The notes under the pieces were generated by a model. That model ran no database searches and was not told the origin of the DNA. It saw nothing but the letters and a program-made list of their open reading frames with translations. A stretch of DNA of 64,000 nt from Nitrosomonas sp. (GTDB lineage: Bacteria > Pseudomonadota > Gammaproteobacteria > Burkholderiales > Nitrosomonadaceae), in contig NZ_JALHQJ010000002.1 of NCBI RefSeq assembly GCF_022842015.1, forward strand, positions 1-64,000, read 5' to 3'. Below, in pieces: positions 9,541 through 53,653 of this stretch; position 1 is the stretch's first letter, and every line of letters starts with the position of its first letter. A program made the translations under genes and the position numbers.

Positions 9541-9939
9541 TTATAGGAAGGCGGGTAATGGAGGGCGTTGCGGCTGTTCCGGAACAAATGAGGTGAATCC
9601 GGAATTTAATGATGGTACTACTGAAGTGATCTTGATTAGCATCGGTGCAGTGTAGCCGGAGAGAACGGGCGTGCTGCTATAAGCATTACAAGAAGCATCG
9701 TCGCAGGGCAGGCTGGTCAACAGATGATTGATTGTGCCATCAGGTGCTTGCTTATGACAGTCGTCATGATGATGGCTGTCGATGGTTGTCATTGATTTGT
9801 CAGCATGATTGCTGAGATTATTTTCTTGCGCACACACGGACAAAACGGCTGCTGCAGCGCCTTGCAGAGGCAGCCACAGCATAAAAAAAACCAATAACCA
9901 TTTGTAATTGTATGCTTTCATGTTTTTTATTATAAACAA
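9541..9939 (-). CDS. Small secreted Cys/His-rich protein of the copper locus
   Basis: A 132-residue protein with a signal peptide (YKWLLVFFMLWLPLQGAAAA) and a mature part rich in His and Cys: 'SHHHDDCHKQ', 'LPCDDASCNAY'. It ends with 'VPEQPQRPPLPAF'. Proteins of this shape often sit beside cus/cop operons and are annotated as hypothetical or DUF2946-like; I am not sure of the family name. The clustered His/Cys suggests periplasmic metal binding, which is inference. An internal ATG at codon 7 (start 9921) is an equal candidate; neither has a clear ribosome site. It lies between the TPR gene and cusC with a 211-base gap on the cusC side. Confidence 0.7.
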   Translation of the reverse strand: MFIIKNMKAYNYKWLLVFFMLWLPLQGAAAAVLSVCAQENNLSNHADKSMTTIDSHHHDDCHKQAPDGTINHLLTSLPCDDASCNAYSSTPVLSGYTAPMLIKITSVVPSLNSGFTSFVPEQPQRPPLPAFL

Positions 9940-9985
9940 TTTCCAGATTTGACAAAGAAAATCTTCAAATAATTTCTGCTTCTGA

Positions 9986-32772: not shown

Positions 32773-33786
32773 ATGGATAATCCGGTCATTATGGTTTTGG
32801 GTTTTCCTGTATCGATAGCTGTGGCAGCACCACTGTTGTCATTTTTGTTATCATTCTTCTTCATTTTATGGTTGATTAAAGTAAGAACGGACTGGGTTCT
32901 GGATCGACCCAATGAACGTTCGCTTCATTCTGTGCCCGTTTCGCGTATCGGTGGTTTAGGCCTGCTTCTTGGAGTAGTTGCAGTTTGGTTGTGTTTCTCG
33001 ATTACGATTCCTAATACAGTATTAATTGGTGCCGGGTTGTTGATGGTAATATCATTGGCTGATGATGTTTGGCGAATTCCGGTTTGGTGTCGGCTGATGG
33101 TTCACACGGTAGTTGCCATTGGATTTTCCATCGTATTTTTATTGGATGCCTATGGCTGGGGGCTTGTGATTTTCACGGTTGTAGTAGTTATCTGGATGTC
33201 GAATCTTTACAATTTCATGGATGGTTCTGATGGTCTGGCGGGTGGAATGACGGTGATTGGATTCGGAGTCTACGGATGGCTTGCCTACGTGGCAGGCAAT
33301 AACAATTTTGCTGTGATAAATTTTTCGATAGCTGCGGCGGCAACGGCTTTTTTAATTCATAATTTTTATCCGGCACGTATTTTTATGGGTGATGTGGGAT
33401 CGATCCCTCTGGGATATCTGGCGGCTGTCATAGGCTTGCTGGGGTGGCTTGATCGACTTTGGTCAATATGGGTACCCGTACTTATTTTCTCACCTTTTAT
33501 CGCAGATGCAACGGTAACACTGATAAAACGATTATTTCAAGGAAAAAGAATCTGGCAAGCGCATTGTGAACACTATTACCAACGCATGGTTCAAAGCAGT
33601 TTAGGTCATCGGAATACAGCGTTAGTGGCTTATGGGTTGATGCTGACAACCGGAGCAAGTGCGGTATGGGCTAATGCGCAAGATGTGGCGTTACAAATCC
33701 GGATGGCGATGATTTGGGGGAGTGTGTATTTGGTATTAATGGTTGTTTCTGATTGGCATCACAAAACTCACTCCGATCAAGGATAA
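32773..33786 (+). CDS. Undecaprenyl-phosphate sugar-phosphate transferase (WecA/MraY family)
   Basis: A 337-residue polytopic enzyme that loads the first sugar phosphate onto the lipid carrier for a surface glycan. Landmarks: 'LDRPNERSLHSVPVSRIGGLGLLLG' (first cytosolic loop), 'LADDVWRIP' (DD motif), 'NLYNFMDGSDGLAGGMTVIGFG' (the NxxNxxDGxDGLA core), 'FYPARIFMGDVGSIPLGY', and 'HCEHYYQRM' (His loop). About ten helices. It is followed 5 bases later by the WbpM-like gene, as in O-antigen and EPS clusters. Confidence 0.92.
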   Translation: MDNPVIMVLGFPVSIAVAAPLLSFLLSFFFILWLIKVRTDWVLDRPNERSLHSVPVSRIGGLGLLLGVVAVWLCFSITIPNTVLIGAGLLMVISLADDVWRIPVWCRLMVHTVVAIGFSIVFLLDAYGWGLVIFTVVVVIWMSNLYNFMDGSDGLAGGMTVIGFGVYGWLAYVAGNNNFAVINFSIAAAATAFLIHNFYPARIFMGDVGSIPLGYLAAVIGLLGWLDRLWSIWVPVLIFSPFIADATVTLIKRLFQGKRIWQAHCEHYYQRMVQSSLGHRNTALVAYGLMLTTGASAVWANAQDVALQIRMAMIWGSVYLVLMVVSDWHHKTHSDQG

Positions 33787-33791
33787 GATAA

Positions 33792-35681
33792 ATGTTTTCC
33801 AACCGATACGGAATCCGTACTTTTATTGCTTTTACCCATGACTTTATCGCAGTTGCTGCGGCTTGGTGGGTGGCTTATTTGTGCCGTTTTAATTTTGAAA
33901 TACCACCTTCATCAGTAATATTTTTACTGCAAACCATGCCTTGGATTGTATTGATCCAAGGCAGTTTCTTTTTGTGGTTGGGGCTTTATCGAGGGTTATG
34001 GCGTTATGCCAGTTTGCCTGATTTAAAAAGAATTGTTGTGGCTGTGGCTGTCGGCTCAGTAGCGGTCACGTTAATGTTGTGGTTATTTAACTTGTTGGGC
34101 AATGTTCCCGGTGCAGTAATGATGCTGGCTCCATTGTTATTGCTGCTAATTATGGGCGGTAGCCGCTTGATATACCGGGCGTGGAAAGAACGTCGTCTGT
34201 ACAGCCTGGAAAGTTATGAAGCGAAGCTGGTATTGATTTTGGGTGCTGGCAGAACGGCCGTAAATCTGATGAAAGCTTTAACAGGAAGTCGTGAGTGGCA
34301 TGTGGTGGGTATACTGGATGATGACCCCAGAAAATTAGGTACGCGCTTACAGGGCGTGCGTGTGCGTGGGACGATCAGCGAATTGCCGCAATGGGTGCAG
34401 AAACTGAATGTTGGGCATGTGATTATCGCTATACCATCCGTTTCTCGCCGGATACACCGACAAGCTTTGGAGATGTGTTCGGAAATCGGCGTGAAAGCGA
34501 TGACAGTGCCTTCCTATGCGGATTTGATCAACGGTAAGACGACGGTGTCACAGATTCGTGAAATCCAACTGGATGATTTGTTAGGTAGAGCCCCCGTGGT
34601 TTTGGATGACGAGGGCTTACATGATTTGTTGACAGGAAAGGTGATTCTGGTGACAGGAGCTGGCGGTTCGATTGGCGCGGAGTTGTGTCGCCAACTTGTT
34701 GCATTTGAACCAAAATATATTGTTTTTGTTGAGCTAAGCGAGTTCTCGCTCTACACTGTTCAAGAAGAATTCTTGACTCGTTATCCGGCAATGAATATGT
34801 CATTTGTAATTGGTGACATCAAAGATCATGCGCGGATGACACAATTATTCACGCAATTTCATCCTACAGTAGTTTTTCATGCTGCTGCGTATAAGCATGT
34901 ACCACTGATGGAGCAAGAGAATGCGTGTCAGGCTATTTTGAATAATGTGCTGGGTACTCATGTGCTGGCCCAGGTGGCGATTGATTTTGCGGTGGAAAAA
35001 TTTGTGTTGATTTCCACCGACAAGGCGGTCAACCCTGTGAGCGTCATGGGCGCCAGCAAGCGCCTGGCAGAAATGGTATGCCAAGCTTTGCAGCAATCTA
35101 TCTCAAAGCATGTAAATTTTGATCAGGATCATCCATCGCACCAGACCTGTTTTGTTATGGTGCGGTTCGGCAATGTACTGGGTAGTGCCGGCAGTGTCAT
35201 TCCAAAATTCCGTGAGCAGATTGCAAAAGGCGGTCCGATTACCATCACCCATCCAGAAATGACACGTTATTTCATGTCTATTCCGGAAGCTGCGCAACTG
35301 GTATTGCAAGCCGGGTTGATGGGCGGTACGCAAAGTGGTGGTGAAATATTTGTGCTGGATATGGGGGATCCGGTGAAAATTGTTGATCTGGCCAATGATT
35401 TGATCCATTTGTCCGGTTTGGCGGAAGGTGATATTCGTGTTGAATTTACGGGATTGCGTCCAGGTGAGAAGCTACATGAGGAGTTATTGTCGACAAGCGA
35501 AAGCACACTCCCGACACCGCATCAAAAATTACGTATTGCGCAGGCATGCCAGATGGATGAACAGTGGCTGTCGGAGTTAACGACTTGGCTGGATAAAGTG
35601 ACCGTATTAAGCGATCAGGAAGTTCGTGAGCAGCTGACTAAATGGGTGCCCGAGTATACCCCTAAAGGAGTGGAGCATTGA
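33792..35681 (+). CDS. Membrane-bound nucleotide-sugar 4,6-dehydratase (WbpM/FlaA1/CapD family)
   Basis: 629 residues: four N-terminal membrane helices, a first Rossmann domain of CapD type ('LVLILGAGRTAVNLMKAL', about residue 150), and the catalytic short-chain dehydrogenase domain ('VILVTGAGGSIGAELCRQL', about 285). The catalytic region 'LISTDKAVNPVSVMGASKRLAEM' shows the SxDK...M...SK variant, in which Met replaces the usual Tyr, as in large WbpM-like dehydratases. The reaction is UDP-GlcNAc to the 4-keto-6-deoxy sugar, leading to QuiNAc/FucNAc-type sugars. Co-transcribed with the transferase before it. Confidence 0.9.
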   Translation: MFSNRYGIRTFIAFTHDFIAVAAAWWVAYLCRFNFEIPPSSVIFLLQTMPWIVLIQGSFFLWLGLYRGLWRYASLPDLKRIVVAVAVGSVAVTLMLWLFNLLGNVPGAVMMLAPLLLLLIMGGSRLIYRAWKERRLYSLESYEAKLVLILGAGRTAVNLMKALTGSREWHVVGILDDDPRKLGTRLQGVRVRGTISELPQWVQKLNVGHVIIAIPSVSRRIHRQALEMCSEIGVKAMTVPSYADLINGKTTVSQIREIQLDDLLGRAPVVLDDEGLHDLLTGKVILVTGAGGSIGAELCRQLVAFEPKYIVFVELSEFSLYTVQEEFLTRYPAMNMSFVIGDIKDHARMTQLFTQFHPTVVFHAAAYKHVPLMEQENACQAILNNVLGTHVLAQVAIDFAVEKFVLISTDKAVNPVSVMGASKRLAEMVCQALQQSISKHVNFDQDHPSHQTCFVMVRFGNVLGSAGSVIPKFREQIAKGGPITITHPEMTRYFMSIPEAAQLVLQAGLMGGTQSGGEIFVLDMGDPVKIVDLANDLIHLSGLAEGDIRVEFTGLRPGEKLHEELLSTSESTLPTPHQKLRIAQACQMDEQWLSELTTWLDKVTVLSDQEVREQLTKWVPEYTPKGVEH

Positions 35682-35735
35682 GCTGTCAAAAATATTCTGT
35701 TTTCTATTCACGGTGAGATTTCTGAAAATTGGATG

Positions 35736-37448
35736 CTAATGCTTGGTAAGCCGGCTATCTTGCATTAATTGAGAATGTCCGGAGGTTTTCAAGTTTTCTG
35801 TGATACATCCATTTTCCAGAACTACAATTCGATCAATCTTTTTTAATTGTGGAACCTGCTGATTGAAAATCAACGTGGTGCGTTTTTGCATTAGTGTTTC
35901 TAAAACAAAGAGCAGGTTTGCGGAATCAGGTTCTTGTGTTGTAAATACTTCATCCAGAATCAATATGGGGGCACTTTTTAGAAATGCTCGTGCGATTGCC
36001 AGTTGAATTAATTGTTTACTGCTGATTTCATTGTCATTCTTGTTGATTTGAGTTTGTAAGCCTTCAGGCATGTTCCGGATAAATTCCATAGCATGGGAAG
36101 CATGTGCGGCAGAGGTGATTTTTGCTTCATTGGCGCATCGCATTGCGCCGTAGGCGATGTTGCCGGCAATTCTGTCATCAAGCAGGAAAGGGTCGGCGGA
36201 TACCAGAGCAATATTGGTATGTATATGATTTATCTTGATTTCGTTAAGTGGATATTCATCCAGCAATATTTTTCCGCTAGAGGGTTGTCGCAGACGGAGT
36301 ATTAAATCAATGAGTGCAGTTTTTTCTGCTTCAGTATATCCAGTAAAAACAATGACATCAGATGGTCTGATTGTTAAGTTTATATGATTCAGAATGGATT
36401 TTATTGGAATTTGGCCATTGAGGCGTACTTGTTCAAATTTCAGTTTGCCGCGGAGCTGTTGGATACTGAAAGTGCCTGTATCCTGTTCGGGAGCCAGATC
36501 AAGAAACGAAAAAACGGTTTCTATCATTTCCTGGTCATGTTCAAGTTGCCTGGGAATGCCAGCGATACGGCGAAGCGGAAAAATAAGCAGTAATGCAACG
36601 GTTATCAATGCGCCTGCTTCGGATAGGCTTAGTGCATCATTCGTAGCCTGTAATGCCATAAGGTAAGTAACAGCGATTAGCATTAATGCAGTCATAAACT
36701 GACTTGAGGGAATAGCCATGGCCCTGATCTTTGCGGGTTGCATTTCGGTATGAAACAGCCTCTCGGAAATGCTTCCAAGGCGTTGGCTTTCGTCAGCTTG
36801 CCCGCCATCCAGTCTGATTTTTCGGTAATGTTTGACAGACTGTGTCAGGTGTTTGGTCAGCTCTTCTAAAGTCAATGAGTTATTTTGATTATTTCTGTTG
36901 AAATGGCTGCGGATCATCTCGTGCATTAATACGATGAATGTTGTTACCAACAGCAGCAGTAGCGAGAATTCCTGATTGAGATATAGCGTGCAAATTAATA
37001 ATCCAATGATAGAAAGACAATCTTGGACCAGCAGGGCAATGTAACGAACTGTGGTCTGAGTGATTCGATTGATGTGAGATATCAATGTGTCGATTTGATT
37101 ATTCTGATTAAGATAAGCGTAGTAATCCACCGGTAGCGACAAAAGCTTATCAAAAAAATCCATGCGCAGATCAGCACCCAGCTTCCCACTGACTCTGCTG
37201 ACAAAATAGAGACTTATGTAACCAAAAATCCAACGTACGGCAAATAATGCAATGATGGCCATTGATGTCGTTTGTATCAACAATAAATCTTTCAGAAGGA
37301 ACATGCTTGCAAGCATTTGTTCAATCAGTATGGGTAGGTAAGCCATGCTTGTTGCCAGGATTAACATGGCAATTAATACGCATACGAGTAATTTCCCATA
37401 AGGCGCAAGTTTTTTGAGCAAGCGGAGGTGGAATTGCGGAAAGATCAT
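35736..37448 (-). CDS. ABC exporter-like fused permease/ATPase with degenerate ATPase motifs
   Basis: A 570-residue MsbA-type half-transporter: six-helix membrane domain (about 1-300) and nucleotide-binding domain. Walker B is intact (ILILDE, 495-500) but the other motifs are eroded. Walker A reads GYTEAEKT (370-377; consensus GxxxxGKS/T, last Gly now Glu). The Q-loop Gln is Ala418 (VSADPF). The signature LSGGQ reads ISSKQ (475-479). The switch His is Gln530 (IFNQQ). The frame is uninterrupted and the folding residues look kept, so it is not a simple pseudogene. It faces the rfbA gene divergently. Either it works only with an intact partner subunit, or it is non-hydrolysing. Confidence 0.8.
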   Translation of the reverse strand: MIFPQFHLRLLKKLAPYGKLLVCVLIAMLILATSMAYLPILIEQMLASMFLLKDLLLIQTTSMAIIALFAVRWIFGYISLYFVSRVSGKLGADLRMDFFDKLLSLPVDYYAYLNQNNQIDTLISHINRITQTTVRYIALLVQDCLSIIGLLICTLYLNQEFSLLLLLVTTFIVLMHEMIRSHFNRNNQNNSLTLEELTKHLTQSVKHYRKIRLDGGQADESQRLGSISERLFHTEMQPAKIRAMAIPSSQFMTALMLIAVTYLMALQATNDALSLSEAGALITVALLLIFPLRRIAGIPRQLEHDQEMIETVFSFLDLAPEQDTGTFSIQQLRGKLKFEQVRLNGQIPIKSILNHINLTIRPSDVIVFTGYTEAEKTALIDLILRLRQPSSGKILLDEYPLNEIKINHIHTNIALVSADPFLLDDRIAGNIAYGAMRCANEAKITSAAHASHAMEFIRNMPEGLQTQINKNDNEISSKQLIQLAIARAFLKSAPILILDEVFTTQEPDSANLLFVLETLMQKRTTLIFNQQVPQLKKIDRIVVLENGCITENLKTSGHSQLMQDSRLTKH

Positions 37449-37599
37449 AATGTGTAATTCTACATCAACATACTGTAATTATTGCATCGTGTAATTTGCT
37501 GGAATATGAACCAGATATAGTACAATCGCCGTTCTTTCTAGTAAACGAGTCCGGATGGAAACGAGCTTTAACCAGTTTGTGAACATCACGATGTAATGA

Positions 37600-38532
37600 A
37601 TGCCAATATTATATACTTCTGATAAAACACGAGATTTTCCAGGAGCAGTTGCTCCTCGACGTAAGGGCATTGTTCTTGCGGGCGGTTCCGGGACACGGCT
37701 TTATCCAGTCACACAAACAGTATCTAAGCAATTGTTGCCAGTATTCGATAAGCCAATGATTTATTATCCGCTTAGTACGCTGATGTTAGCGGGTATTCGA
37801 GAGATTCTAGTTATTTCGACTCCGCGTGACGTAGCCAATTATCAACAATTATTGCGAGATGGAAATCAATGGGGATTGAGTATTACCTACGCTGAACAAT
37901 CTTCGCCCGACGGCCTGGCGCAAGCCTTCCTGATTGGCAAGTCGTTCATCGGCAATGATTGTTCAGCACTGGTATTGGGCGATAACATTTTTTATGGGCA
38001 TGATTTTCATCATTTGTTGTTAAACGCAATGCAGCGTATCAATGGAGCCAGTGTTTTTGCCTATCACGTGCACGATCCGGAACGATATGGCGTGGTCGAG
38101 TTTGATGCTACGGGCAAGGTGGTGAATCTGGAAGAAAAGCCCCAACATCCCAAGTCCAATTATGCGGTAACGGGACTCTATTTTTATGATCAGCACGTAG
38201 TTGATTATGCCGAAAGCTTGAAGCCTTCTCATCGCAACGAGCTGGAAATTACTGATTTGAACCGCATTTATCTTGAAAATTCCGCGCTCAGTGTTGAAAT
38301 CATGCGGCGTGGTTATGCCTGGCTGGATACGGGTACTCATGAGTCCTTGCTCGATGCAAGTCAATTTGTTGCGACGATCGAACGTCGGCAGGGATTGAAA
38401 ATTGCTTGTCCGGAAGAAATCGCATTCCTGCGTGGCTGGATTAGTGCCTCTCAGCTGGAGGCGCTGGCGATGCCATTGGCGAAGAATGGCTATGGTCAGT
38501 ACCTGTTGCATGTATTAAAACGTGAATTTTGA
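37600..38532 (+). CDS. rfbA: Glucose-1-phosphate thymidylyltransferase RfbA
   Basis: Makes dTDP-glucose from dTTP and glucose 1-phosphate, the first step to dTDP-rhamnose. '[45 protein letters not shown]' region is the nucleotidyltransferase signature (GGSGTRL plus the K of DKPMIYYPL). '[14 protein letters not shown]', 'LGDNIFYG' and '[14 protein letters not shown]' are all kept. 310 residues, with about 20 extra N-terminal residues ([21 protein letters not shown]) before the usual start; no better start codon is present near the conserved block. rfbC follows after 15 bases. rfbB and rfbD are not in the window. Confidence 0.93.
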
Positions 38533-38547
38533 CTAAGGTACATACGG

Positions 38548-39093
38548 ATGAAGTCGACACCACTTGCAGTTCCAGATGTTCTGCTGATCGAACCTAGAGT
38601 TTTCGGCGATGAACGTGGATTTTTCTATGAGAGCTTCAATCAACGCAGTTTTGAGTCGGTTATTGGAGAGTCAGTGCAGTTTGTGCAAAGTAACCATTCG
38701 CGCTCTGCGCGCAATGTTTTGCGTGGTTTGCATTATCAAATCAAACAAGCGCAGGGGAAACTCGCGCGCGTGGTAGTGGGAGAAGTATTCGACGTGGCTG
38801 TGGATATTCGCCGATCTTCACCAACTTTTGGAAAATGGGTGGGTGGAGTATTGAGCGCCGAGAACAAGAATCAATTATGGATTCCACCCGGTTTCGCGCA
38901 TGGCTTTGTTGTATTGTCCGATTACGCCGAGTTTTTGTATAACACCACTGATTACTGGGCGCCCGAGCACGAACGCTGTATTGTTTGGGATGATCCGGTT
39001 TTGGCCATTAACTGGCCGATTACCGGGGCACCAGTATTGTCCGACAAAGATGCATGTGGCGTAACGTTCGATAATGCTGAGGTATATGATTAA
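38548..39093 (+). CDS. rfbC: dTDP-4-dehydrorhamnose 3,5-epimerase RfbC
   Basis: 181-residue cupin-fold epimerase of dTDP-rhamnose synthesis. 'GFFYESFNQRSFE', 'VLRGLHYQ' with the catalytic His, 'EVFDVAVDIRRSSPTFGKWVG', 'WIPPGFAHGFVVLSD' and 'YNTTDYWAPEHERCI' with the catalytic Tyr are all present. It runs with rfbA; together with rfbB/rfbD elsewhere they would supply activated rhamnose for the surface glycan. Confidence 0.93.
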   Translation: MKSTPLAVPDVLLIEPRVFGDERGFFYESFNQRSFESVIGESVQFVQSNHSRSARNVLRGLHYQIKQAQGKLARVVVGEVFDVAVDIRRSSPTFGKWVGGVLSAENKNQLWIPPGFAHGFVVLSDYAEFLYNTTDYWAPEHERCIVWDDPVLAINWPITGAPVLSDKDACGVTFDNAEVYD

Positions 39094-40775: not shown

Positions 40776-41582
40776 ATGGGTAATTTAAAGTGTTATCGGA
40801 TGAGTTTGCAGCGACAACTTTGGACAATGGGTGGACTGTCAGTTGCGGTCATTATAGCAGCTATGTTGCTGCCGCCCACTCCACAATCCGGCGAATATCA
40901 CTACTTCGCCGATCAGCGTAGTTTCATTGGCATTCCCAATTTCAACGATGTAATATCCAATTTGGCTTTTTTGCTTAGTGGTGGCGTGGGTTTGGTGTTC
41001 TTGTGGCGAGTTCAGGGAATGACAACGCAAACCACATTTCATAACCGTAAAGAAAGCTTGCCATACTGGGTGTTGTTTTTCAGCGTAGTTGCTGTCGCAT
41101 TTGGTTCTATCTATTATCACTGGACGCCAAACATTGATCGTTTGTTGTGGGATCGAATACCTATTGTCATGGCTATAGCCGCGTTGCTGTCGGCGACGCT
41201 GATCGAACGCGTAAGTTTAACTATAGGTTTAAGAGCGCTACCTTTATTGGTAATTTTTGCGGTGCTGAGCGTGTTATATTGGTATTGGGCCGAACAGCAA
41301 GGCGCGGGGAACCTGAATTTTTATATCGTAATGCAGTTTTATTTGATTCTGTTGATTGTCTGGATCAGCTTTTGCTTTCCATCGCGCTACAGTCATGGTA
41401 ACGATGTTTATCAGATTATTGCGTTGTACGCATTTGCGAAGTTTGTGGAACTATTGGATGGATCAATTTTTGTTTGGACGGATGGTTGGATTAGCGGACA
41501 TACGTTAAAACACCTGATTGCTGCGTATGCTGCCTATCGAATTGTGCTGATATTACGGAAAAGGGTATTGTTGGTAGGGTAA
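40776..41582 (+). CDS. Alkaline ceramidase/CREST-type integral membrane protein
   Basis: A 268-residue protein with about seven helices. The motif set fits the alkaline ceramidase-like (CREST) hydrolases: 'FNDVISNLAFLLSGG' (E/D-N block in TM1), 'FGSIYYHWTPNIDRLLWDRIPI' (the S...H and D of the zinc site in TM2-3), and 'ISGHTLKHLIAAYAAYR' (the HxxxH pair in the last helix). These three His, Ser and Asp positions are the family's metal-dependent amidase residues. Bacterial members are mostly uncharacterised. Its position before a sphingolipid-type gene set suggests a lipid amide as substrate, which is inference. The ATG at 40800 (MSLQRQLW) is an alternative start; neither has a good ribosome site. 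Confidence 0.7.
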   Translation: MGNLKCYRMSLQRQLWTMGGLSVAVIIAAMLLPPTPQSGEYHYFADQRSFIGIPNFNDVISNLAFLLSGGVGLVFLWRVQGMTTQTTFHNRKESLPYWVLFFSVVAVAFGSIYYHWTPNIDRLLWDRIPIVMAIAALLSATLIERVSLTIGLRALPLLVIFAVLSVLYWYWAEQQGAGNLNFYIVMQFYLILLIVWISFCFPSRYSHGNDVYQIIALYAFAKFVELLDGSIFVWTDGWISGHTLKHLIAAYAAYRIVLILRKRVLLVG

Positions 41583-41920
41583 TGTGCCAAACAAATAGTT
41601 TATATATCAGTCGCTGACTCAGATGAAGTAAAAGTAAAAGAATATTAATACTAATATTTATAGTCAATTCTGAAAAACATCTGAGCTTAGCTTTTTGTGC
41701 AGCTTCGAAATTCTACTTTGGTATGCATCGAATAAAGGAAGGCTTGATTCAAGTAAAAGGAAGGAGAAATAGAATTATCGATCAAAGGGAGCAGATGCAG
41801 AATGTGATTTGCCCAGAACTCTCATGGCGCAATTTGCGCAAATGTTGTTTTGATACAACACCGATCTAATATTGCCTTGACAGGAAAAAGCACCTTATAT
41901 AAGCTGCTGAGTGGTCAAAT
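41583..41920. other. Intergenic region before the acyl-AMP ligase
   Basis: 338 A/T-rich bases without a gene. TTGACA (about 41877) and TATAAG separated by about 15 bases lie just before the ligase start and may be a promoter with a very short leader. No ribosome site is obvious before 41921. Confidence 0.35.
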
Positions 41921-43915
41921 ATGACACACTTATATTTGTTAAGCAATGTCAGCGGTAAGCGTTTGAATGAAAATTTTCCAGCCAGCAAAAATGCATTATT
42001 TAAAATTGAATATAAAAATTGGCACGCTCAACCAGAATTTCTTGCAAAGAATGAGCAAGATGACAAGTACAATTACTTCGAGGGGAAGATCTTGAGTTCG
42101 ACAATAATCAAGTTGAACGCTCCGCTAACGCAAGCGTTTGATTTTCAGCCTTCAAGCGAATTGCATCTAACACCGACACCGACACTCAATACGCTAGTTC
42201 AGCAGTTAGCTGGTTTTGACACACTAACAAGTGCTTTAGAATATGCAGCAAAGGGTGTAACGGGGTATAACTTTTATGACGCGAAAGGAAATATTCGTTC
42301 TGTTCTGCCATACAAAACACTTAGGCAGAATGCTCGTACTTTAGCTCAGCGTTTGTCTGGCTTTGATTTGCCCCGTGGTAGCCGGGTGGCGATCATCGCT
42401 GATACCTCCCCGGAATTTGTTGAGTTGTTTTTTGCGTGCCGCTATGCTGGGTTAGTTCCATTTGCAATGCCGGTTCCAGTTAATCTTGGAAGCCATGCGA
42501 TATATGTTCAGCAATTGAGGGGGATGCTCGAAAGTAGTCAGGCTAGTATTGCACTAGCTAATATTGATTATATTAATTTTCTTGAAGAAGCTGTAATAGG
42601 TGTTGCCAGCATACGCTGGGCAGGGACACCAGGAAAATTAAATGAGTTTCCTGTCAATGACGCAGAATTGCAGTTTAATCATCCCGATGAAACTGCGTAT
42701 TTGCAATTCACGTCGGGTAGTACACGTACTCCGCGAGGTGTAGTTATAACCGAACGGGCCCTGATGTGTAATTTGCAAGGTATCGTACGTAACGGTTTGG
42801 AAATAAAACCTGATGATCGTTCCGCATCGTGGTTGCCTTTTTACCATGATATGGGATTGGTTGGACTCGTTCTGGCTCCAATGGTTACGCAGATTTCAGT
42901 CGATTATTTAGCAACTAGGGATTTTGCAATTCGTCCGATGCAGTGGTTGCGCCTAATTAGCCGAAATCGCTGTACGGTTGCATTCAGCCAACCATTTGGC
43001 CTTAAACTATGCACTCTTCGTGTGCGGGAATCTGATCTTAAAGAATTGGATTTAAGTTGCTGGAGAGCAGCTGGTATAGGTGCAGAAATGATTCGCCCCG
43101 ATACTTTAAGAAACTTCGCTGAAAAATTTTCATCAGCTGGTTTCGATGCGAATGCTTTTTTGCCATGCTATGGTCTTGCAGAATCAACACTTGCTGTTAC
43201 ATTTTCAAAAATTAATACAGGATGCAATAGTCTGCAAGTAGATAGTAAGACGCTGATTGATAAAAAAATGGCTGCGAGACTGCAGGCTGATGGCCGAAAA
43301 CAAAATGAATTTGTAAACTGTGGACGTCCATTGCCCGGACATATCGTTAAGATAGTTGATGAAGATGGACATCAATTATCTGAGATGATGGTTGGTAGTG
43401 TGCTGGTGCAAGGTGATAGCGTAATGACTGGCTATTATAATAACCCAGAAGAGACGAGCAAGGCACTTAAGCCTGGAAACTGGTTGGATACTGGCGATAT
43501 TGGTTTTCTGTTTGAAGGTGATTTGTTTATAACGGGACGTCGCACCGATGTGATTATCGTTAATGGCCGCAATATTCGAGCGCAAGATATCGAAGAGTTG
43601 GCTGAGCAGCAACCAGAAGTTAGATCACGAGAGGCGTCTGCATTTGGAATTAATGGTGAAGATGGTACAACGACTATTGTGCTGGTAATTGAATGCCGGC
43701 TAACCTCTCCAACAGAGCGTCAATCGCTGACAACTAGATTGCAGCAACTTGTTTATATGGCATTTGGAGTCAATTGTGTTGTTGAACTTGTTCCACCACA
43801 TACTTTGCCTAGGACTTCATCTGGTAAGCTTTCACGTTTTGCGGCCAGGCAAGGATATATTCAAAGAACCAAATTAGTTGATCAATTATCTTTTGTAGAG
43901 TCAGGCGACAGATAA
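41921..43915 (+). CDS. Fatty acyl-AMP ligase (FAAL/FadD family)
   Basis: A 664-residue adenylate-forming enzyme that activates a fatty acid and passes it to an acyl carrier protein. Core motifs: 'YLQFTSGSTRTPRGVVIT' (P-loop), 'SWLPFYHDMGLVGLVLAPM' (typical of FAALs), 'FLPCYGLAESTLAV', 'NWLDTGDIGFLFEGDLFITGRRTDVIIVNGRNI', and the C-terminal 'PRTSSGKLSRF' lysine. An extra N-terminal segment of about 90 residues precedes the usual start near 'TLTSALEYAAKG' and matches nothing I know. The next gene begins 5 bases after its stop. In Caulobacter-type sphingolipid loci an acyl-activating enzyme like this loads the ACP used by serine palmitoyltransferase. Confidence 0.88.
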   Translation: MTHLYLLSNVSGKRLNENFPASKNALFKIEYKNWHAQPEFLAKNEQDDKYNYFEGKILSSTIIKLNAPLTQAFDFQPSSELHLTPTPTLNTLVQQLAGFDTLTSALEYAAKGVTGYNFYDAKGNIRSVLPYKTLRQNARTLAQRLSGFDLPRGSRVAIIADTSPEFVELFFACRYAGLVPFAMPVPVNLGSHAIYVQQLRGMLESSQASIALANIDYINFLEEAVIGVASIRWAGTPGKLNEFPVNDAELQFNHPDETAYLQFTSGSTRTPRGVVITERALMCNLQGIVRNGLEIKPDDRSASWLPFYHDMGLVGLVLAPMVTQISVDYLATRDFAIRPMQWLRLISRNRCTVAFSQPFGLKLCTLRVRESDLKELDLSCWRAAGIGAEMIRPDTLRNFAEKFSSAGFDANAFLPCYGLAESTLAVTFSKINTGCNSLQVDSKTLIDKKMAARLQADGRKQNEFVNCGRPLPGHIVKIVDEDGHQLSEMMVGSVLVQGDSVMTGYYNNPEETSKALKPGNWLDTGDIGFLFEGDLFITGRRTDVIIVNGRNIRAQDIEELAEQQPEVRSREASAFGINGEDGTTTIVLVIECRLTSPTERQSLTTRLQQLVYMAFGVNCVVELVPPHTLPRTSSGKLSRFAARQGYIQRTKLVDQLSFVESGDR

Positions 43916-43920
43916 AAGGT

Positions 43921-44835
43921 ATGCAAAAATTAGTAGCTGTAACAGGTGCTACTGGTTTTATTGGCAGCGTACTAATTCAAAGACTAGTTCAAGATGGATG
44001 GATAGTTCGTGCACTTGCTCGGGCTATCCGCTTCTCAGATACTGAATCGGTACAGTGGATCCAAGGTAACTTAGAGGATTTTAATGCGTTGCATCGTCTG
44101 GTAGATGGTGTGGCGTGTGTGATTCATTGTGCTGCAACGGTAAGAGGAAGTTCTTTTCAAGAATTTGAACGCACCAATATTACCGGCACAGAAAATGTCT
44201 TGCGTGCCCTCGCTAAACAAAAACAATTTCCCCGTTTTTTACTTATTTCTTCTTTAGCTGCACGTCAACCAGAGTTATCCTGGTATGCTCAAAGCAAGTA
44301 TTTATCAGAGCAAAAGCTTATTGAATACTCAAACCAACTGCAATGGATAATCTTTCGCCCTACAGCTGTTTATGGTCCGGGCGATAAAGAAATGAAACCG
44401 CTTTTTCAATCTATGCATCGTGGTTTTTTCCCCGTTGTTGGAAAAATGCAAAATCGATTTGGACTAATACATGTATATGATTTGGTTGCAGCTATATGTG
44501 TCTGGCTTAATTCTGAAAAACCAATCACTGGAATTTTTGAACTCGACGATGGCACACCTGATGGATATAGTTATCAAAGCCTTAAAGTCATAGCTCAGCA
44601 AATATGGAAGCGCCCGGTACATTGTATTGCGATTCCAGATCTGCTTATCCGATGTATTGCATTAACCAATCTTTGGTTTTCCCGCTTGTTTCAGTACTCC
44701 CCCATGCTGACTCCAGGAAAGGTCAATGAATTACAGCATGAAGACTGGGTATGCAATAATACTCCCTTGATTAACGTACTGCCTGGTTGGCATCCGAGAA
44801 TTCGTTTACAAGATGTATTATCTGAAGTAATCTAA
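43921..44835 (+). CDS. NAD(P)-dependent epimerase/dehydratase (ceramide reductase CerR-like)
   Basis: A 304-residue extended short-chain dehydrogenase. 'KLVAVTGATGFIGSVLIQRLVQDGW' is the nucleotide-binding GxxGxxG. The active-site 'YAQSKYLSEQKL' gives YxxxK, with 'LLISSLAAR' supplying Ser. Family membership alone does not fix the substrate. The setting between an acyl-AMP ligase and an ACP plus SPT-like gene matches CerR of Caulobacter, which reduces the keto group of the ceramide precursor. An alternative is a sugar-nucleotide or other lipid dehydrogenase. Confidence 0.85.
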   Translation: MQKLVAVTGATGFIGSVLIQRLVQDGWIVRALARAIRFSDTESVQWIQGNLEDFNALHRLVDGVACVIHCAATVRGSSFQEFERTNITGTENVLRALAKQKQFPRFLLISSLAARQPELSWYAQSKYLSEQKLIEYSNQLQWIIFRPTAVYGPGDKEMKPLFQSMHRGFFPVVGKMQNRFGLIHVYDLVAAICVWLNSEKPITGIFELDDGTPDGYSYQSLKVIAQQIWKRPVHCIAIPDLLIRCIALTNLWFSRLFQYSPMLTPGKVNELQHEDWVCNNTPLINVLPGWHPRIRLQDVLSEVI

Positions 44836-44864
44836 CTTCAAAATTAACTACACTGAAATAACCT

Positions 44865-45122
44865 ATGACTGAAAGTAATTATGATGAGATCATGAAGCTG
44901 CTTTGTGATCGTCTAAGCGACTTGGCCAATGCTGATGTCTTGATTACCCCTGAAACGAACTTGATCAACCAATTGTCCATTGATTCCATCAAACTGCTCA
45001 ATCTGATTATGGAAGTTGAAGATGCTTTTGATATTTCTATTCCTATCAATGTATTAACAGATGTTCAAACAGTTCGTGAGTTAGCTGATTTGGTACATAA
45101 AATTAAAATAACATCATCATAA
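44865..45122 (+). CDS. Acyl carrier protein
   Basis: 85 residues, acidic and helical. The phosphopantetheine serine is Ser41 in 'QLSIDSIKLLNLIMEVEDAFDI' (the family's DS[IL] motif). Its stop overlaps the SPT-like start (TAATG), so the two are coupled. It is a dedicated carrier, not the general AcpP, and would hold the acyl chain made available by the upstream ligase. Confidence 0.92.
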   Translation: MTESNYDEIMKLLCDRLSDLANADVLITPETNLINQLSIDSIKLLNLIMEVEDAFDISIPINVLTDVQTVRELADLVHKIKITSS

Positions 45123-46315
45123 TGAATTTACTTGAAAAGCTAGATGCTGCCGCTGCAGCAAGAAAGGCACTATTACCTAATGGAGTGGGAGCTTTTGGTA
45201 TACCAATCGAAGAGATTTTTTCGGCTACTGAGGCCCGAATTGGGGACCGTCGAGTACTTTTAATGGGTACAAATAATTACCTGGGCTTAACTTTCGCTCC
45301 TGAATGCATTCGTGCGGCACATGAGGCGATTGATAAAGAAGGAACAGGCACCACCGGCTCACGGATGGCAAATGGCAGCTATTTTGGCCATCGAGCATTA
45401 GAGAGAGAATTTGCCGATTTTTATCAATGTAGCTCAAGTATTGTTTTTACAACCGGTTATCAAGCGAACTTAGGTACCATCTCTGGTCTGGTTGGTCCAG
45501 GCGATACGGTTCTGATTGATGGCGATTCTCATGCAAGTATTTTTGATGGTTGTATTCTTAGTGGTGCGAATATTATTCGCTTCAAACATAATGATATGGC
45601 CGACATGGAAAAACGATTGCGTCGCTTGGGGGATAATATTGAAACCACGCTCATTATCGCTGAAGGTATATATAGTATGCTTGGAGATCAGGCGCCTTTA
45701 GCCGATATTGTGCAATTGAAAAATAAATATGGTGGTATATTGCTCCTTGATGAAGCTCATTCACTCGGCGTTTTAGGTAAATCAGGTCAAGGTCTTGTTG
45801 AAACAACAGGTTTGTTAAATGAAGTTGATTTTATAACAGGAACTTTTAGCAAAAGCTTATGCAGTATTGGCGGGTTTTGCGTGAGTAATCACCCTCAACT
45901 GGAACAATTGCGGTATGTCAGTCATCCCTATATTTTTACTGCATCGCCATCACCGGCAACAATTGCCTCAACACGTGCAGCCTTAGAGTTGCTTCGGAAA
46001 GGCAGTCATTTGCGTGACAAATTATGGAGCAACTGTCGACAACTCTATGCGCAGCTTAAAGAAGTAGGCTATCAGCTAGGCCCGGATCCTGGTCCAGTCA
46101 TTGCTGCTGTTGTTGCAACGCCACAACAAGCACTGCTACTCTGGCAACAATTACTCGAACATAATATTTATGTAAATCTAATTTTGCCGCCAGCAGCACC
46201 CGAAGGTAAATCACTCGTTCGGTGCAGCGTAAATGCTGCTCACACAACGGAAGAAATTAGATATGTAGGTGATACTTTTGCAAAACTGTACGGTGCGATA
46301 AATATGCAGACATAA
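45122..46315 (+). CDS. Alpha-oxoamine synthase, serine palmitoyltransferase-like
   Basis: A 397-residue PLP enzyme of the AONS/SPT/KBL/ALAS family that condenses an amino acid with an acyl thioester. 'NNYLGLTFAPECIRAAHEAIDKEGTGTTGSRMANG' region, 'IDGDSHASIFDGCILSG' (His stacking on PLP), 'LLLDEAHSLGVLGKSGQG' (Asp and His of the PLP site) and 'ITGTFSKSLCSIGGF' (PLP lysine) are all present. Four products are possible in principle. The coupled ACP, acyl-AMP ligase and CerR-like gene favour serine palmitoyltransferase over biotin synthesis, since no bio genes are near. It is the last gene of the unit. Confidence 0.88.
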   Translation: MNLLEKLDAAAAARKALLPNGVGAFGIPIEEIFSATEARIGDRRVLLMGTNNYLGLTFAPECIRAAHEAIDKEGTGTTGSRMANGSYFGHRALEREFADFYQCSSSIVFTTGYQANLGTISGLVGPGDTVLIDGDSHASIFDGCILSGANIIRFKHNDMADMEKRLRRLGDNIETTLIIAEGIYSMLGDQAPLADIVQLKNKYGGILLLDEAHSLGVLGKSGQGLVETTGLLNEVDFITGTFSKSLCSIGGFCVSNHPQLEQLRYVSHPYIFTASPSPATIASTRAALELLRKGSHLRDKLWSNCRQLYAQLKEVGYQLGPDPGPVIAAVVATPQQALLLWQQLLEHNIYVNLILPPAAPEGKSLVRCSVNAAHTTEEIRYVGDTFAKLYGAINMQT

Positions 46316-46453: not shown

Positions 46454-47104
46454 ATGCAAATAATGCGGGGATTGGTTTTAATATTATTTTCTTTTCTATT
46501 GCAAAGTCATGCCCTGGGATTAAGTATTGTGTACGATGGGTTTAGCTGTCTGAGTGCAGTTGATTCCAATGATCCGACCCCCACTATCACACCGATACAA
46601 AGTAAGTTTGAGGTCATTGAAGATGCCGGAGAAGGCATATATCGTTTAAGCCTAACAGGTGGTATCCCGCGTTTTGTCAATAATAATCAGAATGTGTGTA
46701 TTGATAGTACAACGGCAATTGGATACTCGGGAATTCCTGCGATTGACGGTTTGCCACGCCAACTGGAATTCATTGATGCCACAGCCTATTTTAACGGTAA
46801 AGAATTAATGATTGTTATCAGTTCAATGTATACTGACTTGAGCGCGAGAAGCAATCCATTTTTGCCTTTTACTACGAGTTCTGTGTTTGCACTTACAAAC
46901 ACGCTCATCATGGAATTTAATCCTAATTTGTCTTCGTTTAGTTTAAAGAAAGTATTGCGCAATCGAGGATTTACGCAGACTAATGAATCCACAAATTTAA
47001 TAGCGCCATTCCAAGAAACTGTTTTGCCATCATTTAATGAGACAGCACGAGACAGACCCAAGATACTTACTCCAGTATCCAATATAGACTTTTTTTTGCA
47101 GTAA
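46454..47104 (+). CDS. Secreted protein of unknown function
   Basis: 216 residues with a signal peptide (IMRGLVLILFSFLLQSHALG). The mature part is beta-rich, with two cysteines (FSCLSAV; NVCIDST) that may pair. No PEP-CTERM tail, lipobox or known domain was seen. It has a GAGGTAC site before the ATG. It may be transcribed from its own promoter or read through from the SPT-like gene 138 bases upstream. Confidence 0.65.
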   Translation: MQIMRGLVLILFSFLLQSHALGLSIVYDGFSCLSAVDSNDPTPTITPIQSKFEVIEDAGEGIYRLSLTGGIPRFVNNNQNVCIDSTTAIGYSGIPAIDGLPRQLEFIDATAYFNGKELMIVISSMYTDLSARSNPFLPFTTSSVFALTNTLIMEFNPNLSSFSLKKVLRNRGFTQTNESTNLIAPFQETVLPSFNETARDRPKILTPVSNIDFFLQ

Positions 47105-50052: not shown

Positions 50053-50616
50053 ATGCATTATCAGAACCTGCTTTGTATTGGCGATAGCCAAACTTTTGGC
50101 GCGCGGACTTATGGTTGTTATCCGTTATATCTGGCCCAAACGCTCACTCAACAAACACCTTATCAATGGCGTACGATTAATCGAAGCGTTAATGGCTATA
50201 CAGCTCGGGAATTATGGTTTCTGCTCAATAATGAGATCGAAGTCATCAGCGATACTTATCAAGTATGTGTGCTCATAGGTACAAACGACGTGGGAAATGA
50301 AACGCCCCTAGATCTTTTTGAAGAATATTACCGGCAGATTGTTCGAGCATTTCTGATCAAAAAATACAAGGCTATATTTTGTGCTGAAATTCCCCCTATT
50401 TTTCCCGATGGCCATATTTTCTTCCGCAAAGAAACAGTAGATCGTCGAAATCAATATAATGACGCGATCAGGAAAATTTCAGCCGAAAATAAAAAAATTC
50501 ATTACGTGCCGATTAACGGATTAAGTCGTGATTGCTATGTGGATTCTGTTCACTTCAACGAGCAAGGAAATCGAGTTGTCGCTGAGACATTTGCTAAGGC
50601 TATTCTAGAACGGTGA
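50053..50616 (+). CDS. SGNH/GDSL-family hydrolase
   Basis: 187 residues with the SGNH blocks: block I 'LLCIGDSQTFGAR' (Ser nucleophile), block III 'CVLIGTNDVGNE' (Asn), block V 'DSVHFNEQGNRVVAE' (Asp-x-x-His). Such enzymes are lipases, esterases or carbohydrate deacetylases. No signal peptide, so it acts in the cytosol. The stop overlaps the next gene's GTG start, and that gene is an amino-sugar epimerase, so a role in sugar or glycolipid deacylation is plausible. Confidence 0.88.
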   Translation: MHYQNLLCIGDSQTFGARTYGCYPLYLAQTLTQQTPYQWRTINRSVNGYTARELWFLLNNEIEVISDTYQVCVLIGTNDVGNETPLDLFEEYYRQIVRAFLIKKYKAIFCAEIPPIFPDGHIFFRKETVDRRNQYNDAIRKISAENKKIHYVPINGLSRDCYVDSVHFNEQGNRVVAETFAKAILER

Positions 50617-51671
50617 AAGTCGGGATTGTAATTGGCACTCGTCCCGAGGTCATGAAAAATTACGCCATTGTTAAGGCTCTGCGCGAAGCGAATTTGGATT
50701 TTGTCGTTCTGCATACTAATCAGCACCAGGATCCATTGCTCCGAGAGGTGGTATTTGCCGAAATGGGCTATGTGCCAAATTTTATTTATCCTCGATCTTA
50801 TAGTATTGGCGCGGCGATTGATTGGGTATGCGACATCATTCGCACGCAGCAGATTGATCTGATCTTGGTGAATGGCGACACTGCGGCGTCAATTGTAGGC
50901 GCCGTTGCTGCTGTCTATTCTGATGTTGGATTAGCTCATGTCGAGGCAGGTCTGCGTGCTTATGATAATCGCATGTATGAGGAACGCAACCGTATCATGG
51001 TCGATAGTGCGGCGCATTATTTGTTTACGTATACGCAGTATCATGCGGAATATTTGAAAAATATTCCGGATTTGCGTGGCCGAATTTTCAATGTTGGCAA
51101 TACTACTGTAGATTTAATTCATGACTTCTCTGCTGAATTGGTTAAACCGCGTTTGGATACTTACGCATATATTACCCTGCATCGAAAGGAATTTACCGAT
51201 AGTCGCACAAGAATGATTGACGTTTTTACAACGCTCAATTCGCTGGCAGATGAATTTGATGCTATGATTTTCCCCATACATCCGCGGACGCGGGATGCTA
51301 TGCAAAATTATAGCCTTAGCTTTGATCTCTTGTCACAGATAACGGTTATTGATCCGGTCGATCCATTTACATCGCTTTCTTACGAGAAATTTGCGGCGCT
51401 AATCATTACCGACAGTGGCTGCATTCAGGAAGAGGCTTATATTTTTGGTGTCCCATGCGTGACCGTGCGAAATAACACCGAGCGACCGGAGACCATAAAA
51501 GTGGGAGCCAATGTGCTAACTGGTTTCTCCCCTGGAGTGATCCAGGATAAAATATGTTCGCAGAAAAGCCTTGGCCATCAGCAGTTCCCGCCCGTCTATG
51601 GTGACATCGGAGTGGGTGAGCGTATTGTCCAAGCTTTACGAAAGCATTTTATAAATTGGCGTAATTATTAA
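50613..51671 (+). CDS. UDP-N-acetylglucosamine 2-epimerase-like protein (WecB family)
   Basis: 352 residues, GTG start overlapping the SGNH stop (GTGA). 'KVGIVIGTRPEVMKNYAIVKAL' is the family N-terminus (GTRPE). 'VLHTNQHQDPLL', 'ILVNGDTAASIVGA', 'HVEAGLRAYDNRMYEERNRIMVD' and 'ITDSGCIQEEAYIFGVPCVTVRNNTERPET' line the UDP-sugar site. The reaction is UDP-GlcNAc to UDP-ManNAc or hydrolysis to ManNAc. The consensus 'PEExNR' reads 'YEERNR' here, a small departure. Probably supplies an amino sugar for surface glycan. Confidence 0.9.
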   Translation: MKVGIVIGTRPEVMKNYAIVKALREANLDFVVLHTNQHQDPLLREVVFAEMGYVPNFIYPRSYSIGAAIDWVCDIIRTQQIDLILVNGDTAASIVGAVAAVYSDVGLAHVEAGLRAYDNRMYEERNRIMVDSAAHYLFTYTQYHAEYLKNIPDLRGRIFNVGNTTVDLIHDFSAELVKPRLDTYAYITLHRKEFTDSRTRMIDVFTTLNSLADEFDAMIFPIHPRTRDAMQNYSLSFDLLSQITVIDPVDPFTSLSYEKFAALIITDSGCIQEEAYIFGVPCVTVRNNTERPETIKVGANVLTGFSPGVIQDKICSQKSLGHQQFPPVYGDIGVGERIVQALRKHFINWRNY

Positions 51672-51735
51672 TTGTGTACGTCGATTTCTTTGATCTATAC
51701 ACAGGGCATCATTACAATCTGAGCTGAGCTTTTTA

Positions 51736-53646
51736 TTAAGTTTTTTGACCTGATTGAGTTTCTACACATTTGTCTCGTAGCATGTTGACTAAGTTGTCAT
51801 CGATGGAAAATTCAGTTTGATTTTCTTCGCTTGGGGTAATAAGAGTCAGAAATTCATGGGGCAAGCAAGTACGGGTTTCTGTCCTTAGGGTGTTAAGGGG
51901 TTCCTTTGCACCATATTTTCTGGAAATCCAGCCCAATGGCAACTGCTCATTCCCACGATATAAGCAGGATTTGCCACCTTGTATGCTAACAAACCATGAC
52001 TTACCTGCGCAATCTATGACAATTTCATCACTCATCATTTCGGCATGTGCATCAACATGCCAGTGCATTGCCAGGGCGTGTTCGCCCGTGCCATCCACGC
52101 GATCCCAAATCATCCACCTTCCGAACCGATGGTCATAGACAAGCGCTCGCCAGTGCATTACTCCACTATCAGCATAGCCATTATGATTGGCCAGGATTAC
52201 AGTCTTGCCATTAAGATTTTCACTGTGCCATATTAGTTTTGCAGTGTATGCGCGTGACCAGCCAAATGCGGATTCCTTATTCTGCAATGCTTGATCAGTA
52301 TCATCCACCACAATTGTGTTATGGGCCGATGTGCCGCGAAAGTAATGCCTGAAATGCGGATTCCCGTCATAAAGATATGTGCCTGGGTCGACTAATAATG
52401 GTTTTCCGTCAAGATCCCAACAAATAGATAAAGCATCGGCGTGCCCATGCCCGAACGCACTTGCTAATCCAAGTTTGCCATGACTGAATCGCATATCGCC
52501 ATGATTTGCCGCTCCTAGAATTCTCGAGTACCCGGATGCTGCAAAAATTTGCAGCGACTGTACTGGTAATTCGGATTCACAAAGGCTATTTTTCCATGAT
52601 AATTGGAGATATGGCGACAATGCATAGCCATCGTCGCTATCCCCTACCGCAGGTAAGTTATCAGGCGATGAAGCAAATGCTTGTAAAAAATTTCTACCAC
52701 GAAGCCAGGCTTGTTCGATATCGCTGGGAGCGGATCTACCATGATGTTTGAGCAGGCAGGTGACCAGTCCGCACAGATCAACCATCATCGCTAGATATCG
52801 GAACGATTGTTCGCGATTTCCTCCATCCGGAAGAATTTGAGCATTTGCTTCCTGCGCCATGATTTTTAAGCCAACAGCCAGCCATTCTTCCGAGTCGGGT
52901 AGTTCGGGAAAGAGTATGCCGGCGTAAATAAGCCCAGCACATTCTCCGAGGGTATGATTCCCGGCGTAAGCAAAAAGACAAAGTCTTCGCCGGATGAAGT
53001 AGGCGTGGTTGTGTACAAGATACACAAGTGCCTGCCAAGTTTGCTGACTAATATTCTCATTTCTTACACTATCAAATGCATGGCAGATACTTATCAGCCT
53101 GAGCGCACATTCCATAGTAGAAATATAATTTACGCCCTTCAGCCACGGATTCGCACTGATCCACGACAGCATTAGTTTTTCCATTCGCCGAATAACTTGG
53201 CGTTTGATGCAAGGATCATCTGTTAGATTGCCAACCAAACTGATGGTGACCAAATTTTGTAACCGGGAACGAGCCCAAACAAATTGAATATCTCCAATCG
53301 GATTGCCCGGTGCAAAAGGGATTTGCGCAAAGAATTTTAGGGGCCAATAGTGTCCGGTGTCTGGCGCTTTGTGCCAACACAGATCGTTTGCGGAGGTTGC
53401 ATGATTTGCTGAATTGGGAATGGCGCAAACTTGCTGGTCACTTTTAGTGACGAGATTCTGTAGCTCTAAGTCCTCAAAATCCCAATGAAGCTGAGGAAGG
53501 CAAGACAGTTCACTGCGGCAGAACGTATGGTTCTCCGGATTGATAGTCTTGTTGAAAGGCAAGCCATAACCTGCGCGCAACTTGATCCACATGCCGACAA
53601 GCGATACCCGTCTCCGGATGCGATATAGAGATTCGCCCAGACTCAT
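51736..53646 (-). CDS. Heparinase II/III family polysaccharide lyase
   Basis: 636 residues. An alpha/alpha-toroid N-terminal half (long helical region to about 340, including 'NHTLGECAGLIYAGILFPEL' with the N/H of the active site) is followed by the heparinase II/III beta domain: 'KLGLASAFGHGHADALSICWDLDGKPLLVDPGTYLYDG' region and 'RGTSAHNTIVVDDTDQ', the conserved His/Tyr block. No signal peptide, so it is probably cytosolic, as for homologues in EPS clusters. It is followed 7 bases upstream by the radical SAM gene on the same strand, forming a pair. Confidence 0.9.
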   Translation of the reverse strand: MSLGESLYRIRRRVSLVGMWIKLRAGYGLPFNKTINPENHTFCRSELSCLPQLHWDFEDLELQNLVTKSDQQVCAIPNSANHATSANDLCWHKAPDTGHYWPLKFFAQIPFAPGNPIGDIQFVWARSRLQNLVTISLVGNLTDDPCIKRQVIRRMEKLMLSWISANPWLKGVNYISTMECALRLISICHAFDSVRNENISQQTWQALVYLVHNHAYFIRRRLCLFAYAGNHTLGECAGLIYAGILFPELPDSEEWLAVGLKIMAQEANAQILPDGGNREQSFRYLAMMVDLCGLVTCLLKHHGRSAPSDIEQAWLRGRNFLQAFASSPDNLPAVGDSDDGYALSPYLQLSWKNSLCESELPVQSLQIFAASGYSRILGAANHGDMRFSHGKLGLASAFGHGHADALSICWDLDGKPLLVDPGTYLYDGNPHFRHYFRGTSAHNTIVVDDTDQALQNKESAFGWSRAYTAKLIWHSENLNGKTVILANHNGYADSGVMHWRALVYDHRFGRWMIWDRVDGTGEHALAMHWHVDAHAEMMSDEIVIDCAGKSWFVSIQGGKSCLYRGNEQLPLGWISRKYGAKEPLNTLRTETRTCLPHEFLTLITPSEENQTEFSIDDNLVNMLRDKCVETQSGQKT

Positions 53647-53653
53647 ATGCGAC

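Follow-up and report, generated by a model that had tools for sequence, protein, structure and literature searches.

A predicted sphingolipid biosynthesis operon in Nitrosomonas and its possible connection with the loss of lipid A genes

Gene content and arrangement of the locus

In the window (the whole stretch of 64,000 nucleotides of Nitrosomonas DNA that was analysed), the genes aasR, cerR, acpR and spt form a tight operon, in which 5 and 29 bases separate the first three genes and the ACP and SPT genes overlap by 1 base, and a gene for a ceramidase-like protein ends 338 bases 5' of it (Table 1). An ORF check confirmed the five ORFs of the initial annotation with their coordinates and spacing. 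The four-gene order was intact in all of 20 further regions from the same genus and was also found in Caulobacter contigs and in E. coli BL21, so that the arrangement is not a product of chance. The annotated identity of the gene set with that of the Caulobacter SPT locus was likewise borne out, the same order being seen in the named Caulobacter contigs.

Table 1. Genes of the ceramide operon and its ceramidase-like neighbour
Feature	Position in the window	Strand	Model match
Ceramidase-like 7-TM protein of the CREST superfamily, 268 aa	40776-41582	+	PF05875, 27.5 bits (cut-off 32.5)
aasR, fatty acyl-AMP ligase, 664 aa	41921-43915	+	NF006624, 849 bits (cut-off 600)
cerR, NAD(P)-binding reductase of the epimerase/dehydratase family, 304 aa	43921-44835	+	PF01370, 91 bits
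acpR, dedicated acyl carrier protein, 85 aa	44865-45122	+	PF00550, 44 bits
spt, serine palmitoyltransferase (PLP enzyme), 397 aa	45122-46315	+	NF047599, 569 bits (cut-off 500)

The closest solved structure to AasR was E. coli FAAL (3pbk, E=1e-155), and the protein is 46% identical to the ligase of the BL21 SPT cluster. The ORFs of its relatives and the E. coli homologue align to AasR only from about residue 38-97; the start codon of aasR is therefore uncertain, and the conserved protein starts at about 42092-42210. CerR is 42% identical over its full length to the enzyme of the BL21 cluster and about 36% identical to that of Caulobacter. AcpR carries the phosphopantetheine serine in a DSI motif and is 44% identical to AcpR of BL21; in each of the 20 genus regions, acpR lies directly 5' of spt, and in the window a FAAL-type acyl-AMP ligase is encoded nearby. 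An identity of the ligase as exosortase-associated acyl-CoA ligase (TIGR03098) was rejected (108.6 bits against a cut-off of 592). Immediately 3' of spt, a secreted-looking protein of 216 residues with no Pfam or NCBIfam match is encoded (46454-47104, + strand), and roughly half of the 20 regions read from the genus have a protein of this type after spt.

Identity of the PLP enzyme

The PLP enzyme, which passed the SPT model (Table 1), scored 323 bits against the bioF model, under the cut-off of 426. Among solved structures, bacterial SPTs were its closest relatives (E=3e-117), with KBL, ALAS and AONS far behind, and its catalytic segments are common to solved SPTs. In a phylogenetic tree that included E. 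coli BioF, E. coli Kbl, the BioF of the same genome and ALAS, with CqsA absent, the protein was placed inside a 28-member SPT clade (support 100/100) together with the SPTs of Nitrosomonadaceae, E. coli BL21 and Caulobacter, and outside BioF. It is 53% identical to the BL21 SPT and 29-32% identical to the two BioF proteins of the tree, and the same genome encodes a separate BioF that scores above the bioF cut-off. The model score and the tree thus uphold the initial description of this protein as SPT-like. The model scores and the tree ruled out BioF/AONS, KBL and ALAS as its identity, and CqsA was ruled out by a model score far under the cut-off.

Alpha-oxoamine synthases have a common fold and chemistry, and sequence does not give their substrate with certainty, so the product of the cluster could in principle be another alpha-oxoamine lipid or signal made by AONS-, CqsA- or KBL-like chemistry, with no sphingoid base. 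We regard this as very improbable: the SPT model is reached and the BioF, KBL and CqsA models are far under their cut-offs, the genome has its own BioF elsewhere, the SPT clade is fully supported, and the genome also has a ceramide synthase gene and phosphosphingolipid genes, which are conserved together with spt, as described below.

Ceramide synthase and putative headgroup genes elsewhere in the genome

The initial annotation noted that the bacterial ceramide synthase (bCerS) is missing, and it is indeed absent from the window; a homologue search with YghO of E. coli BL21, which is the bCerS equivalent (PMC9386255), located it on another contig (C43) of the same genome. The gene (C43:9566-10717) was the sole match to YghO, with 49% identity and E=4e-125 over 9608-10711. 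A search of solved structures with bCerS gave no relative. This gene, which 82 of 85 genus genomes carry, completes the set of five ceramide genes, and there is no reason to expect the product to stop at a long-chain base, as had been suggested. On the basis of these homologies, the four genes of the window very probably encode the opening steps of a full sphingolipid (ceramide) pathway of the bacterial type.

On C43, bCerS is followed by genes for a MobA-like nucleotidyltransferase (CC_1153-like), LptF, LptG, a CDP-alcohol phosphotransferase-like protein (CC_1159-like) and a fusion of a kinase with a CC_1161-like protein, a gene content that this operon has in common with a Caulobacter locus (L133), and a CC_1152-like gene (45% identity) lies on a third contig (C9). 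Homologues of the ceramide phosphoglycerate (CPG) pathway proteins CC_1160 (kinase), CC_1161, CC_1159, CC_1153 and CC_1152 are thus all present in the genome, the CC numbers being assigned from gene order and from the descriptions available from PMC11324152 rather than from the C. crescentus sequence itself. An equivalent of CC_1158 was reported to be absent in N. eutropha and non-essential in Caulobacter (PMC11324152).

The fusion gene (C43 15187-17181, region L052) is an ORF of 664 residues in which a diacylglycerol-kinase domain (ceramide-kinase-like) is joined to a Tam41-like cytidylyltransferase. Other lineages of the family have two separate, neighbouring genes for the kinase and the CC_1161-like protein, and the lineage of the window has a single ORF. 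The kinase half is only 22-28% identical to Caulobacter-type proteins. Of 16 homologues of the C-terminal half, 11 gave a weak Pfam match to Tam41 (best E=2.8e-5), and the top five PDB matches of the predicted structure of this half (pLDDT 86) were chains of the CDP-diacylglycerol synthase Tam41 (best E=2e-8); a domain of the CDP-DAG-synthase type in CC_1161 was noted in PMC11324152. This distant fold match would suggest a CDP-ceramide step, and the fusion with the kinase would favour the order ceramide, ceramide-1-phosphate, CDP-ceramide.

Proposed pathway

The analysis establishes the identity of the genes, the completeness of the ceramide set, its conservation and the structure of the operons, and from these we infer the individual enzymatic steps, the exact headgroup and the transport as follows. 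AasR is predicted to supply the dedicated carrier protein AcpR with a fatty acid that it has activated, and SPT is predicted to make 3-oxo-sphinganine out of L-serine and the acyl-AcpR. N-acylation by bCerS and reduction by CerR, whose predicted substrate is either 3-oxo-sphinganine or an oxidised ceramide, would then give dihydroceramide; should the order proposed for Caulobacter apply, acylation would precede reduction. The ceramide kinase/Tam41-like fusion, the CDP-alcohol phosphotransferase-like protein and the nucleotidyltransferase would add a phosphoglycerate-type headgroup, and, judging from the genes present, a headgroup of the CPG type is likely. LptF and LptG may export the sphingolipid toward the outer membrane. 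SPT, AcpR and AasR of this type have been tested experimentally (PMC9386255). Against the pathway count the dispersal of the genes, two operons and one separate gene being needed, the reported absence of a CC_1158 equivalent in N. eutropha (PMC11324152) and the low identity of the kinase half.

The ceramidase-like neighbour

The protein encoded upstream of the operon, which has the 7-TM fold, scored under the Pfam gathering cut-off for ceramidases (Table 1), but the residues S111, H115, D126, H242 and H246 (SxxxH, D and HxxxH), that is, all of the CREST metal ligands, are invariant in 15 homologues. For its AlphaFold model (pLDDT 90), human ACER3 (6g7o) was the sole PDB match under E=0.001 (E=2.8e-4, TM-score 0.56), and a family profile matched SIDT2 with E=1.6e-4 and ACER3 with E=0.14. 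A protein from N. eutropha served as an intermediate in defining the CREST superfamily (PMC3146951), and it is perhaps the present protein. The motifs and the ACER3 fold make the annotation of a ceramidase-like neighbour plausible as far as a CREST hydrolase is concerned, whereas its position next to the operon is specific to a lineage: a gene of this type was found in 75 of 85 genus genomes and lies beside spt in seven (G000, G037, G076 and G080-G083). It was not found in five SPT-bearing genomes that are at least 93% complete. Membership of this gene in the operon was rejected because so few of the 85 genomes show the adjacency. That it encodes a functional ceramidase turning over the lipid made next door would accord with the conserved ligands, the best solved fold and the reach of the profile. 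Against this stand the score under the ceramidase cut-off, the rarity of the adjacency, the absence from the five near-complete genomes and the inclusion of phospholipases and other proteins among CREST members (PMC3146951), and we consider this reading tentative and rather doubtful.

Distribution in Nitrosomonadaceae and comparison with known systems

Of 85 genus genomes, 81 encode an SPT that scores above the cut-off, as do 119 of 125 family genomes, in four genera; the genomes that fail the cut-off are incomplete assemblies (51-91% complete). In two genus genomes, amoA was observed about 5 kb from the sphingolipid operon or from spt (L036 3398-4150 and L048 14977-15735). The AmoA proteins of these two regions are 84-85% identical to a Nitrosomonas AmoA, a value to be taken as a lead; their presence within 18 kb of spt supports the assignment of the genus to the ammonia oxidisers. 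The window also carries genes for urea carboxylase and allophanate hydrolase (23908-29363, + strand), a possible route from urea to ammonia.

The initial annotation held that sphingolipids are not a known trait of ammonia oxidisers. As a genomic prediction this is out of date, since two papers, of 2022 and 2024, describe sphingolipid genes of a Nitrosomonas (PMC9386255, PMC11324152): Neut_0458-0461 and Neut_1100 of N. eutropha were listed as aasR, epi, acpR, spt and the acyltransferase gene (PMC9386255), and the CPG genes of this species were found in three regions, with CPG and CPG2 as predicted products (PMC11324152). We found no report on the sphingolipid chemistry of any ammonia oxidiser in the open-access literature searched. 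Given these published genes, the present locus adds one more member to a set already described. N. eutropha C91 has the same four-gene order, a separate bCerS gene and CPG genes spread over three regions, and the locus in the window is very likely the orthologue, in a congener, of Neut_0458-0461. In the portions of the two papers available to us (PMC9386255; PMC11324152), N. eutropha is listed among several organisms, and the sole LptF/LptG pair, the loss of lipid A, the kinase fusion and the conservation in the family are not discussed. New here are the family-wide occurrence of SPT, the single LptF/LptG pair beside bCerS, the kinase-Tam41 fusion and the clean loss of lpxD, lpxA and lpxB.

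The gene order of Caulobacter was compared by using a Caulobacter sp. locus (L133) and a Caulobacterales locus (L128). In the former, the ligase, CerR, ACP and SPT genes are followed by genes at the positions of CC_1161, CC_1160 and CC_1159 on the other strand and then by LptG2, bCerS and CC_1153, which is the published Caulobacter order. Homologues of aasR, cerR, acpR, spt, bCerS, CC_1153, CC_1159, CC_1160, CC_1161 and CC_1152 from the CC_1165-CC_1152 region of C. crescentus are present in our genome, but there they are split over three contigs, the kinase is fused to the CC_1161-like protein, and a second LptF/LptG pair is lacking. Caulobacter retains lipid A. In E. coli BL21(DE3), yghO and the genes for FAAL, the epimerase, ACP, SPT, LptG and LptF form one locus; its five ceramide proteins are 42-53% identical to those described here, near full length, and the range is 33-53% once LptF2 and LptG2 are included. 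E. coli differs in its additional housekeeping LptF/LptG and in its lipid A genes.

The LptF/LptG pair

One LptF and one LptG were found in the genome, both encoded in the bCerS operon (C43 11523-13660, L052), and a search of the genome for a second pair next to a housekeeping pair, as in Caulobacter, found none. Exactly two matches to PF03739 were obtained in 83 of 88 family genomes that are at least 95% complete. The bCerS gene lies within about 2 kb of LptF/LptG in 59 of 60 genus genomes; in the sixtieth, the genes are on two contigs, near the contig ends. The same bCerS-LptF/LptG operon occurs in regions from the three other genera of the family.

Other Burkholderiales also have one LptF/LptG pair, of a different type. 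In a phylogenetic tree, LptF of Nitrosomonadaceae grouped with LptF2 of BL21 and with the LptF of one gammaproteobacterial cluster (support 100/99), apart from 27 LptF sequences of Burkholderiales (99/99), and it is 34% identical to LptF2 and 23% identical to the housekeeping LptF of BL21. A tree in which LptF was forced together with that of Burkholderiales was rejected (P = 0.011; P = 0.08 once three rows were removed). The corresponding constraint on LptG was not rejected (P = 0.16), and the LptG tree alone is not decisive. These comparisons support the assignment of the LptF of the family to a putative sphingolipid type.

Lipid A genes and the composition of the outer membrane

In E. coli, the lipid A genes lpxD, lpxA and lpxB lie in the block bamA-skp-lpxD-fabZ-lpxA-lpxB-rnhB. 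The corresponding block of our genome (contig C17; L317 15208-19235) reads rseP-bamA-skp-fabZ-rnhB, with 77 bases at the place of lpxD and 65 bases at the place of lpxA-lpxB, and no match to LpxD, LpxA or LpxB was found in 40 kb. The loss agrees with a report of 2010, in which N. europaea was described with only lpxK and Nitrosospira multiformis with only lpxA and which tied the losses to genome reduction (PMC3087551). No match to LpxC, WaaA or LptD was found in the 1.17 Mb searched, a result that is uninformative by itself as it covers 38% of the genome. In bacteria such as Sphingomonas koreensis, sphingolipids are known to replace LPS partly or wholly (PMC11324152).

One reading accommodates both the published findings and the LptF/LptG result, namely that a phosphosphingolipid stands in place of LPS. 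Since the lipid A genes have been lost from the block where they normally lie, we lean towards such a replacement in the outer membrane of this organism. With similarly modest confidence, we extend it to Nitrosomonadaceae as a whole, the family being without lipid A, the outer leaflet consisting of phosphosphingolipid, and the LptF/LptG pair of the sphingolipid genes serving for export and having displaced the LPS pair. The sphingolipid might instead supplement an outer membrane with normal LPS. Caulobacter is such a case, lipid A and sphingolipids occurring there together, and the fraction of the present genome reached by the search for lipid A genes leaves room for an addition of this kind. 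The clean absence of lpxD, lpxA and lpxB from their canonical place, the single-copy LptF/LptG located with bCerS and the report of only lpxK in N. europaea (PMC3087551) argue against mere addition, which we judge unlikely. In the open-access literature searched, we found no paper joining the loss of lipid A to sphingolipid genes and no report establishing the surface lipid of the outer membrane of ammonia-oxidising bacteria.

Nitrification inhibitors are directed at ammonia-oxidising bacteria, the organisms that control the first step of the process. If replacement of LPS by a phosphosphingolipid is correct, they would be a second case beside the sphingomonads, free-living and globally important, of a change from LPS to sphingolipid with retargeting of the Lpt bridge, and the survival of a free-living Gram-negative lineage without lipid A would be accounted for. 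They would also offer a naturally occurring example of an Lpt bridge that carries sphingolipid alone, making the transport of bacterial sphingolipids testable. Assays for LPS (endotoxin, Kdo) would miss such cells, and ceramides would be a possible biomarker.

Two further features of the window concern the cell surface. An MsbA-like ABC transporter (35736-37448, - strand) scored 377 bits against the MsbA cut-off of 602 and has a degenerate Walker A motif (GYTEAEKTA); in a genome that lacks lpxA, lpxB and lpxD in the canonical block, such a protein might be a relict or else serve as a flippase for sphingolipids. Genes for surface polysaccharides flank the operon (32773-39093 and 50613-54832) and encode a WecA-like transferase, RmlA/RmlC-like proteins, a WecB-like epimerase, and heparinase-like and radical SAM proteins, suggesting that a surface glycan is perhaps made in a cell without lipid A.
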